Origin: Actinospineispora eucalypti
GTDB lineage: Bacteria > Actinomycetota > Actinomycetes > Mycobacteriales > Pseudonocardiaceae
Reading direction: 5' to 3'
Assembly (NCBI GenBank): GCA_014208095.1
Contig: JACHMT010000005.1
Coordinates: forward strand, 1,116,001-1,180,000
Length of the DNA stretch: 64,000 nt
The notes under the pieces are model-generated. The model was not told the DNA's origin. It was given only the letters and a program-made list of their open reading frames with translations, and did not search any database. Shown here piece after piece: positions 20,601 through 27,544 of the stretch (position 1 is the first letter of the stretch; each line of letters opens with the position of its first letter). The position numbers and the translations under genes were made by a program.

Positions 20601-23600
20601 TCGAAGTGGCCGGCATCGTGCAGGAAGCCACCGTGCCGCGCGTAGCTCTTGCCCGCGGCGTCCGGGTCCGGGTCGTAGAGCCCATCGAGATCCCAGCCCC
20701 GGTTCTCCGGGAACCCGGAGATGACCTCCCCGCCATCCACCAGCAGCCGCCACAGGTCCTCGGGTGAGCCGATTCCACCGGGGAAGCGGCAGCTCATCGC
20801 CACGATGGCGATCGGGTCGTGGTCGTCGCCGGCCGGCCGAGGGTCCGGTTCCGGCGCGGACGGCCCGGGTGACGCGCCGACCAGCTCGCCGATGAGGAAC
20901 CGGGCCAGCTGCACCGCCGTGGGGTGCTCGAACAGCAGGGTGGCCGGCAGCGCCCGGCCGCACGCCTCGGCCAGCCGGTTGCGCAGTTCGACCGCCATCA
21001 GCGAGTCGAGCCCCAGCTCCTGGAGTGGGCGGTCCATCGGCACCGCGCCCGGCGAACCCAGGCGGAGTACGGCGGCGGCTTCGCCGGCGACGACGTCCAG
21101 CACCGCGCGTTCGCGGTCCGCCGGGTCGAGCGACCGCAGCCGGTGCGGGAGCGACTCGGCCGGCCCGCCGGGTCGGGCGCCCAGTTTGGCGCCCGACGGA
21201 CCCACCGGCGCGGTCCCGTTGTCGGCGGCCGCGCGCGGGGGCGCCTGGATCCGCTCGAAGCGCGCGGCGACCAGCGCGGGTTCCGGCCGGGTGAGCGCGG
21301 CGTCGAAAAGCGCGAGGCCCTCCTCGGCGGAGAGCGCGCCGATCCCCCGGTCACGCATGCGCCGGGTGTCGGCGTCGGTGAGGTCCTTGGTGAGGCCGGT
21401 GCGCTCGGCCCAGTAGCCCCAGGCGATCGAGCAGCCGGCCAGCCCTCGGCGGCGGCGGTGCTGGGCGAGTGCGTCGAGGAACGCGTTGGCGGCGGCGTAG
21501 TTGCTCTGCCCGGGGCTGCCGATCGAGCCGGCCACCGAGGAGAACAGGACGAACGCGGCCAGGTCGTGGCCGCCGGTCAGCTCGTGCAGGTTGACCGCCG
21601 CGTCGAGCTTCGCGGCGAACACCGACGCGATGCGCTCGGCGCTCATCGCGGTCAGCACGCCGTCGTCCAGGACCCCGGCGGCGTGCACCACGGCGGTGAG
21701 CGGGTGCTCGGCCGGTATGCCGGCGAGCCGCACGGCCAGCGCGTCCCGGTCCGCCGCGTCGCAGGCGACGACGGTGGCCGTCGCGCCCTCCGCGCACAGC
21801 TCCCGCACCAGCGCGCCGGCACCGGCCGCGTTCGGGCCCTGGCGGGAGAGCAGAAGCAGGTGCCGGACCCCGTGGGCTCGCACGAGGTGCCGGGCGAACA
21901 GGGCGCCGAGCGTGCCGGTCCCCCCGGTGATGAGCACGGTCCCCTCCGGGGCCAGCGCTCGGCCGGCGGGTGGGTCACCGGACACCGGCGCCAGCCGGGG
22001 CACCAGGCGTCGGCCGCCGCGCAGGGCGAGCTCCTCCGGCGGGTCGGCCAGGGCCGCCAGGTCGCCGGTGTCGGTGTCGGTGTCGGTGTCGGTGTCGGTG
22101 TCGGTGTCGCACAGCGTGATTCGGTGGCCGGGGTGCTCGATCCGGGCCGAGCGGACCAGGCCCCAGACCGGGGCGTGCGCCAGGTCGGGCACGTCCTCGT
22201 CCGGGCGGGCCGCCACGGCGCCCCGGGTGAGCAGCACCAGCCGTGACGACGGCGTGCGCGGGTCGGCCAGCCATGCCCGCAGGAGGTCCAGTGCTCGCAC
22301 CGTGGCCCGCCGCGCTGCCCCGGCCAGGTCCGCCGTAGCCGGTGCGGCCAGGGGAACGACGGCGACAGCGGGCAACCGCGCACCCCGTTCCAGTGCCTCG
22401 CGCAGCGCCGCCGGATCCGCGTAGCGCTCGACGTCCGCCGCTGACTCCAGGGAAGCCGGTGCCGCTTCGGACCAGCTGATCCACCGCAACGGGCGGTGGG
22501 CGGCGAGCCGGGCGCGGAACTCGTCGGCGGTGTCCGGCCGGGTGCTCAGTGCCGCGACCGAGGCGACCGGCGCACCGAGGGCGTCCGCCAGCGAAACCGC
22601 CACGGTCCCTCCCGGGCGGCGCTCCAGGTGTACCCGGACGGTCGAAGCACCCACCGCGTGTACGGACACCCCCGTCCAGGTGAAGGGCAGCCGGACCTCC
22701 GGCCGGCCGGTGTCCAACGCCGCCAGCGCGTGCAACGCGGTGTCCAGCAGCGCGGGGTGCAGCGCGAACCCATCGGACTCTCCGGCGGTCTCGGGCAGTG
22801 TGACCTCGGCGAACAGCTCCTCGCCGCGCCGCCACGCCGAGCCGAGTCCCCGGAAGGCCGGGCCGTAGTCAACTCCCGCTTCGGACAGGCGCCGGTACAG
22901 GCCGCCCAGCGCGACCGGGTCCGCGTCCGGCGGCGGCCAGCTCGCCGGGCCGGCGGCGGCCGGCGCGGCTGCCGGCGCGAGGATGCCGGTGACGTGCCGG
23001 GTCCACGGCGCGCCCGGCGGCGCGTCCTCGGCCCGGGCGTGCAGGGTGAGCGTCCGCCGGCCGGACTCGTCCGGGCGGTCCACTTGCAGCCGCAGCTCCA
23101 CCGAGGCCCGGTCGGGGAGCGTGATCGGGATCTCCGCGACCAGCTCCTCGACCCGGTCCAGCCCGGCGTGCTGGGCGGCGGTCAGCGCGAGTTCCAGGGT
23201 CGCCGCGCCGGGCAGGGTCACCTCGCCGAAGACGGCGTGATCGGCGAGCCACGGATGCTCGGTGAGCGACACCCGGCCAGTGAGCAGGGCGCCGCCATCG
23301 GCCAGTTCGACCGCGGCGCCGAGGAACGGGTGCGCCAGCGGCGCCTGCCCGAGCGGTGCTTCGCCGGTGCGCCGGGTGGCGGCCGGCGACAGCCAGAACC
23401 GCTCTCGTTGGAACGCGTAGGTGGGCAGGTCGACCTTGCGCCCCGGGAGCGCGCGCGACCAGTCGATCCGGTGCCCCCGGGTGAGCAGCTCGCCGAGTGA
23501 GAGCAGGAGACGCTCGTGGGTGCCCTGGTCGCGGCGCAGCGAGCCGACCGCGACCGGCGCCTGCTCGGTGCCGGCACGGGTCTCGGCCAGTGCCTGGGTC

Positions 23601-26600: not shown

Positions 26601-27544
26601 ACGGTGCTGTCCGGTGACACGATCAGGCTGACTCCGCCGGCCAAGGCCAGCGTCGACTCACCACGTCGCAGGCTCTGGCAGGCCAGGTGCACGGCCACCA
26701 GCGAGGAGGAGCAGGCGGTGTTGACGGTCAGGCTGGGCCCCTCGAGGCCTAGGATGTACGAAACCCGTCCGGACAGCACGCTGGTGTCCTGTCCGGTGGC
26801 GGTGTGGGAGTCGATGGCGGCCGGGGCGGCGAGCCGGGCGTAGTCGCTCCACATCGCGCCGAGGAACACGCCCGTGGCCGTGCCGCGCAGTGAGTGGGGC
26901 ACGTGCCGGGCGTCCTCCAGCGCCTCCCAGGCCAGCTCGAGCACCAGCCGCTGCTGCGGATCCATCTGCGTGGCCTCGCGCGGCGAGATGCCGAAGAAGG
27001 CGGCGTCGAAGCGGTCCACCTGGTCGAGGAACCCGCCCCAGCGGGTGCTCATCTTGCCCGGCGTGCCCGGGTCGGCGTCGTAATGACGGTCGATGTCCCA
27101 CCGGTCCCCGGGCACCTCGCGGATCGCGTCGACCCCGTCGCGGAGCAGGGCCCAGAATGCCGAGGGTGAGTCGCAACCGCCGGGGAGGCGACACGCCATC
27201 CCCACCACGGCAATCGGCTCGTCCGTGCTGGTCGCCGGTGTACCGCCGCCGGACGGCGCTTCAGGGGAGGGGCTTGTCGCGCTCTCCAGATGACCCGCCA
27301 GCGCATCGAGGGTCGGGTACTCCCAGGCGAGGGTCGCCGGGAGGGGGCGCTTCAGCCTGCTCGCCAGCCGGCCCACCATCGCGGTGGCCGCGGCTGAGTC
27401 GATGCCGTAGTCGCGGAACCGCCGTGCCGGGTCGTATGACTCCTCCGCCACTCCCGCCACCCGCGCGAGCTCCGCGCGCAACCATTCACGAATCCCCGGA
27501 CCACCGTCGTGCTCGACGGGCCGCGGTTGTCCCCCGTTGGCCAT
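17606..27544 (-). CDS. Type I modular PKS: ACP-KS-AT-AT-DH-KR-ACP-KS-AT-PCP
   Basis: Approximate domains in this 3312-aa protein: ACP 20-85 (DYGIDS); KS1 105-525 (TACSSS, HGTGT, KTNLGH); AT1 620-925 (GHSMGE, FASH); AT2 1040-1335 (GHSQGE, YAAH); DH 1405-1665 ([10 protein letters not shown] and LLDTALH); KR 1680-2060 (GGTGTLG, LDD of B-type, SS and SNY); ACP 2140-2215 (LGLDSL); KS2 2240-2670 (TACSSS); AT3 2775-3080 (GHSQGE, YASH); PCP 3220-3300 (LGGSSLQ). All catalytic residues checked are present. AT2 and AT3 look methylmalonyl-selective. AT1 resembles starter-loading ATs. There is no ER or TE. Module 2 lacks a KR although the linker that normally precedes one remains. The start at 27544 has GAGGGA 7 bases upstream; the frame reaches 27598. 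The C-terminus ([11 protein letters not shown]) is NRPS-like and leads into the coupled NRPS. Confidence 0.95.
22067..22108 (+). repeat. Hexanucleotide tandem repeat (GGTGTC)7 inside PKS gene
   Basis: Seven perfect GGTGTC units lie in the region encoding the structural half before the KR domain. On the coding strand they give alternating Asp-Thr residues. Copy changes would stay in frame and add or remove Asp-Thr pairs. Confidence 0.9.

Follow-up and report, generated by a model that had tools for sequence, protein, structure and literature searches.

In a window of 64,000 nucleotides from Actinospineispora eucalypti (assembly GCA_014208095.1, contig JACHMT010000005.1, positions 1,116,001 to 1,180,000 of the forward strand), a polyketide synthase (PKS) gene opens with a module that probably combines loading and first extension in the manner of certain myxobacterial synthases: a first acyltransferase (AT1) would prime an N-terminal acyl carrier protein (ACP0), and a second acyltransferase placed beside it (AT2) would load methylmalonyl. 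The window is the whole of that stretch, and positions are counted from its first letter. This view is carried by the order of the domains, by their intact catalytic motifs, by the presence of the tandem pair in four further gene clusters and by the grouping of the first ketosynthase (KS1).

The gene, at 17606-27544 on the minus strand, belongs to an open reading frame that extends to 27598 (17606-27598, 3330 residues), the ATG at 27544 being its likely start. Read by motif position, the domains follow the order ACP0-KS1-AT1-linker-AT2-DH-KR-ACP1-KS2-AT3-dimerisation element-ACP2, where DH and KR stand for dehydratase and ketoreductase. Pfam found in the protein two ketoacyl-synt, three Acyl_transf_1, one DH, one KR and three PP-binding stretches, and the catalytic motifs that were sought were all present. 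An initial annotation of the window had announced ACP-KS-AT-AT-DH-KR-ACP in a single module, which the Pfam counts and the motif order bear out; the span it gave, 23500-27544, is right for ACP-KS-AT1-AT2, not for DH-KR-ACP, which sits at about 20849-23332. All on the minus strand, ACP0 (27275-27490) has its phosphopantetheine serine in GIDS (27406), and KS1 (25934-27220), a member by its trees of the clade of tandem-module ketosynthases, displays NTACSS, HGTGT and KTNLGH, with a cysteine at the active site that makes it a condensing enzyme, not a KSQ. AT1 (24719-25696), the proposed loader of ACP0, contains GHSMGE (25405), TRSRL (25327), where its arginine, Arg759, is kept, and FASH (25099). 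A linker of the KS-AT type (24431-24718; Pfam CurL/RhiE-like linker matches, residues 974-1041) separates it from AT2 (23459-24430), the proposed extender AT of module 1, where GHSQGE (24157), LRSRA, YAAH (23851) and GQGSQ are all intact. The serine, histidine and arginine attributed to both ATs, and the difference in motifs between them, are therefore confirmed. Module 1 continues with DH (22529-23332; HPWLADH, HPALLD), KR (21404-21943; YAAAN, with LDD at 21670, a B-type motif according to the available text of PMC5785472) and ACP1 (20849-21106; GLDS). Module 2 (17699-20815) consists of KS2, AT3 (GHSQGE/YASH), a dimerisation element and a carrier protein, and Pfam and motif reading of the PKS protein found no KR in it. 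An ACP with its serine ahead of KS1, two adjacent ATs with serine and histidine, and a ketosynthase of the cysteine type are the features expected of a combined loading and first-extension module, and the protein has them all.

The affiliation of KS1 points to the origin of this module. A scan of contigs with an AT1 alignment was summarized as the best 78 distinct loci among the matches listed, where the seven matches that followed the Pseudonocardia locus were all myxobacterial; tandem ATs were seen in at least 20 of the 78 loci (plus-strand frames), including loci of Nocardia, Catenulispora, Streptomyces and Lentzea. Five genomes reached via named loci were searched as well, which added, among others, modules of So ce26 and of Myxococcus xanthus. 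We take one of these, L114 of So ce26, to be soraphen SorA, on account of a frame of 6406 residues lying near one of 8818, in keeping with the sizes of the soraphen synthases; another, L110 of M. xanthus, is presumably the first myxalamid PKS. A tree built from 96 KS domains placed 33 of the 34 ketosynthases that precede tandem ATs in one clade, with a Shimodaira-Hasegawa-like approximate likelihood ratio test (SH-aLRT) support of 98. This clade holds window KS1 and that of L114, together with three KSs from ACP-KS-AT arrangements and two others; window KS2 lies outside. With more myxobacterial genomes, 69 of 70 tandem KSs came together (SH-aLRT 95), in a sampling biased towards the kin of the window, most later loci having been found by similarity to its ACP-KS-AT-AT, and the KSs of both L110 and L114 shared the clade of window KS1. 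Wide draws gave few cases: in Myxococcota one genome of 140 at E<=1e-195, which was So ce26 itself (at most four candidates scored per genome), and in the class of the window two of 246, the window's genome among them (two candidates scored). The initial annotation left open whether this actinomycete line borrowed or reinvented the logic of such modules. As KS1 shares a clade with ketosynthases from tandem-AT modules of myxobacteria, the trees argue that the module was shared or borrowed, and they disfavour reinvention.

Within the genus, the ACP-KS-AT-AT order recurs in three genomes (G048, G049 and G010, the last with two clusters), and the tandem layout of the window is thus not a product of chance. 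When 100 genomes were searched, 60 of which belong to the window's genus and include its own, with six candidates scored per genome, a tandem-AT PKS was seen in at least 4 of those 60. Besides the window, the pair is found in four Pseudonocardia clusters, three orthologous and one distant. Among the matches listed, the whole tandem module was 74% identical in G048, 61% in G010 C11 (Pseudonocardia spinosispora) and, in two pieces, 69 and 79% in G049; that of G010 C8, the distant one, was 48% identical to the window's. The AT1s of the three orthologous clusters are 67-73% identical to that of the window, and the four compared pairwise range from 67 to 74%. The AT sequences of L031, from P. spinosispora DSM 44797, are the same as those of G010 C11. 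The distant PKS (L024, G010 C8:298912-305496), second of its kind in P. spinosispora, has a KS that groups with Nocardia L047 and L053. In G049 (L026) only 6 residues separate the KS1 and AT1 matches, where the window, G048 and G010 C11 have 75-80: the linker ahead of AT1 seems to have been lost with the frame unbroken.

Comparison of the ATs with one another shows that AT1 and AT2 are not twins. The identity of AT1 is 43% with AT2 and 42% with AT3; AT2 and AT3 share 62%. The idea that AT1 is a recent, redundant copy of AT2, a prospect that the initial annotation had raised against its own proposal, is ruled out by these figures and by the separation of the two in both AT trees. In G010 C11, AT1 is conserved and the next AT is of the malonyl type (HAFH), the AT that resembles window AT2 (69% identity) being placed in the following module. 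On this evidence AT1 stays with ACP0-KS1 when the AT that follows is swapped, and the AT1/AT2 junction reads as a recombination point. The frame of G010 C11 is split between the KS and the AT of its second module, by a sequencing error or in reality.

The nature of the substrate of AT1 may be approached through a single residue. In extender ATs, malonyl-type units are bound at their free carboxylate by one arginine, as by Arg117 in FabD and by its counterpart in the animal malonyl/acetyl transferase. In a first survey of 189 distinct ATs (202 before duplicates were removed), this arginine was present in 123 of the 124 single ATs, in all 30 tandem-second ATs and in 16 of the 34 tandem-first ones. 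Extended to 72 distinct tandem modules, which remained of 110 rows after 14 with a short AT and the duplicates had been set aside, the survey found it in every second AT (72/72) and in 26 of the first ATs. This is what would be expected if the second AT loads extenders and the first often handles monocarboxylic starters. The 46 other first ATs had in its place glutamine (16), tyrosine (16), alanine (7), glutamate (3), methionine (2), tryptophan (1) or leucine (1); L114 has tyrosine and L110 glutamate. The catalytic serine was lacking in 8 first ATs and the histidine in 8 (2 and 3 of the second ATs), and when the nine first ATs without one or the other are removed the arginine is kept in 25 of 63. 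Six modules from Archangium and the M. xanthus family (L056, L065, L178, L180, L186, L189) have a remnant first AT, with GHGVGE and no histidine region, next to an intact second one. Placed on the KS tree, the arginine-keeping label called for 5 changes, against 20.8 on shuffling, and the types of KS1 and AT1 thus go together; these sequences are related and such counts are not independent events, and the mostly arginine-keeping half of the tree contains 6 modules without it. Window AT1 and its three orthologues all keep the arginine, and so do not show the loss that marks the starter ATs of the soraphen and myxalamid type.

When the broken first ATs were left out and a mixture model used, the four Pseudonocardia AT1s grouped with first ATs of Nannocystaceae and Myxococcaceae (SH-aLRT 93), namely L221 and L208 (genomes G570 and G555), L032, L035 and L210, all of them with FASH and the arginine. 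In both AT trees AT1 lay apart from the arginine-less first ATs of the soraphen and myxalamid type. An approximately unbiased (AU) test in which the window-type AT1s were constrained to form a clade with eight first ATs of the soraphen/myxalamid type, a group chosen after the tree had been seen, did not reject this arrangement (p 0.956); the constrained tree had a likelihood above that of the free one, the free search having stopped below its best, and the earlier AT tree alone does not therefore place AT1. A single origin of all 34 first ATs was weakly rejected (AU p 0.033). AT2 belonged in the earlier tree to a clade with AT3 and second ATs of So ce26 (SH-aLRT 98). GHSQGE accompanied by a YASH-like motif is read as the methylmalonyl type, and motif and grouping together predict that AT2 is an extender AT for this substrate.

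We can therefore propose how the assembly line might work. AT1 would charge ACP0 with a starter acyl group, which KS1 would take over; AT2 would charge ACP1 with methylmalonyl, and KS1 would condense the two. Reduction by KR, then dehydration by DH, would lead to an alpha-methyl enoyl chain. A second methylmalonyl would come from module 2 without reduction, the ketone being left as such, and a nonribosomal peptide synthetase (NRPS) would add an amino acid, probably serine. The ACP that each AT serves, as well as every substrate named here, is what we infer from motifs and groupings. Since AT1 keeps the carboxylate-binding arginine, an alpha-carboxylated CoA, or else a small acyl-CoA fitting a pocket of the malonyl type, is a more likely substrate than benzoyl or another bulky monocarboxylic starter. 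The unusual starter suggested by the initial annotation finds no support: the arginine, missing from 46 of the 72 first ATs, is retained, and no gene dedicated to the supply of a starter could be named, whether from the comparison of 26 window genes with the surroundings of the orthologous PKSs or from a survey of ligase and amidohydrolase genes in 62 genomes.

Several observations weigh against a starter-loading AT1. The arginine itself, absent from L114, could make it an extender-type AT. Its placement is tentative, since it varies with the model and the rows retained and the support of 93 falls under the mark of 95: in the earlier tree the branch closest to AT1 was a pair of first-AT remnants from Archangium (SH-aLRT 89), L032 and L035 being apart. 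L206 and L193 have a KS1 in the KS group of the window (SH-aLRT 94), with first ATs placed elsewhere. In L032, L035 and L210 the second AT lacks the histidine in all three and the serine in two, the first being intact, which implies that there the first AT serves extension or both roles. It is conceivable, if rather unlikely, that AT1 is an extender-type enzyme, both ATs serving ACP1 or AT1 serving both ACPs, with ACP0 primed in trans or through acceptance by AT1 of acetyl- or propionyl-CoA; animal fatty acid synthase, with its acetyl/malonyl transferase, offers a model for one AT in both roles. The kept serine, histidine and arginine, and the three modules with a broken second AT, favour this alternative. 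Yet it would make AT1 redundant, AT2 being intact and grouped with AT3 and other GHSQGE ATs, and it accords poorly with the conservation of AT1 between the window and its three orthologous clusters, even where the next AT has been exchanged. A related and equally doubtful possibility is that KS1 and AT1 track two classes of tandem-AT modules, one without the arginine, for monocarboxylic starters, and another, with Pseudonocardia, that might load a malonyl- or methylmalonyl-type unit onto ACP0, to be used whole or decarboxylated by an ordinary, non-KSQ ketosynthase.

The starter might also be aromatic or fatty, activated by the acyl-CoA ligase encoded nearby (9944-11485) and made with an amidohydrolase and an FAD hydroxylase, but this is far less plausible still. 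Amidohydrolase and ligase (9944-12359, minus strand) are downstream of the NRPS, and it speaks for their participation that the genes follow it on the same strand. Among the matches listed, the ligase passed the NCBIfam cut-off only as a member of the fatty-acid/acyl-CoA ligase subfamily, and its homologues in the genus, 44-63% identical, may not be one-to-one orthologues. These homologues are however common, in 37 of 62 genus genomes including the window's (E<=1e-120), as are those of the amidohydrolase (50 of 62, E<=1e-70), compared with at least 4 of 60 for the tandem-AT PKS. Ligase and amidohydrolase lie within 1 kb of each other in G037, G041, G045 and G053, where no tandem module appeared among the candidates scored, whereas G048 and G049 have the PKS and carry both genes on other contigs. 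In the surroundings of the orthologous PKSs, the matches of the ligase were confined to NRPS adenylation (A) domains, and neither the amidohydrolase nor the FAD hydroxylase had any; AT1, moreover, keeps its arginine. The pair is probably not part of the PKS system, nor a dedicated source of its starter. We retain the reading of AT1 as the loader of ACP0.

So understood, the module is a further member of the tandem-AT starter modules already described. The available text of PMC10051162 describes such first modules for soraphen, myxothiazol, myxalamid, chondramide and miuraenamide (MiuA), and that of PMC6117699 for JomP1, the jomthonic acid PKS of Streptomyces caniferus. As described in these two sources, the myxobacterial modules share the ACP-KS-AT-AT order of the window; with the grouping of KS1, this upholds the likeness to a myxobacterial combined loading and first-extension layout put forward in the initial annotation. 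In both, the division of labour between the ATs is offered as a proposal or conjecture. No further ACP-KS-AT-AT case was found in the available text of PMC6164871, PMC4768178, PMC5764310, PMC12800573, PMC9765074 or PMC5785472. Literature searches on the arginine rule and on tandem-AT modules in Pseudonocardia listed a few papers, reviews to judge by their titles, which does not prove the absence of earlier publications. JomP1 is, like the window PKS, an actinomycete protein with such a first module (ACP-KS-AT1-AT2-KR-ACP) in a PKS-NRPS pathway; by its published description, in the part available, it differs in that no DH is listed and that its AT2 is proposed to be inactive (changed GqgSQ), the GQGSQ of window AT2 being intact (PMC6117699). 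The layout is thus no novelty among actinomycetes, the Nocardia, Catenulispora, Streptomyces and Lentzea loci adding to this precedent.

With L114 and L110 the window shares the KS1 clade, but its AT1 keeps the arginine and falls in another group of first ATs. Apparently nearer are L032 of Enhygromyxa salina, L035 of Plesiocystis pacifica, L210 (G537, drawn from the family of L032), and L221 and L208 (G570 and G555, from the M. xanthus family). They have a first AT with FASH and arginine, as in the window, and belong with it to the same groups for KS1 (SH-aLRT 94) and for AT1 (93); L032, L035 and L210 differ by their broken second AT, both ATs being intact in the window. MiuA (4105 residues), the first AT of which is proposed to load acetyl-CoA, has its best match in Pyxidicoccus fallax (PMC10051162, in the text available). 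This organism has two tandem modules. L200 lies in a frame of 4016 residues, has tyrosine for arginine and showed no DH in the first module; L199 lies in a frame of 2691 residues and has both a DH and the arginine. To judge from length and layout, MiuA more likely corresponds to L200. In that case an acetyl loader does without the arginine, and window AT1 is pushed towards substrates that are carboxylated or resemble extenders; should L199 correspond instead, the argument is reversed.

The NRPS gene (12888-17609, minus strand; C-A-PCP-C, condensation, adenylation and peptidyl carrier domains) begins within the stop of the PKS gene, in an ATGA overlap. Inspected by eye, the protein gives DVWHISLVD for its A-domain pocket, which matches codes of the serine type. 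Three motif pieces of this pocket are nearly unchanged in the three orthologous NRPSs, in none of which the YGPTE pattern of the fourth piece was matched. The last C domain (12960-14234, minus strand) is degenerate, NYMFSDG replacing HHxxxDG in the window and in G049. Pfam identified no thioesterase in the PKS and NRPS proteins. Upstream of the PKS, an MsnO8-family luciferase-like oxidoreductase (28425-29438, minus strand; NCBIfam and sequence match) has a relative of the same family, 42% identical, beside the PKS of G048. PKS and NRPS apart, 26 window genes were compared with the stretches around the orthologous PKSs; the G048 gene was the only counterpart, and the other matches were those of the ligase on A domains and a short-chain dehydrogenase/reductase (SDR) at about 30%. 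A PhoU-domain gene (27761-28414, minus strand) stands between the PKS and luciferase-like genes; in G048 the latter directly abuts the PKS. A tryptophan 2,3-dioxygenase-family gene is found about 14 kb from the PKS (41970-43169, minus strand).

The consequence of these observations extends beyond the window. They indicate that a myxobacterial way of priming polyketides has spread into several actinomycete genera through shared ancestry. The split of first ATs by a single arginine provides a simple sequence test for modules that possibly take monocarboxylic starters, and window AT1, with both ATs intact and the arginine kept, is a clean case for the rule that governs the choice of starter.

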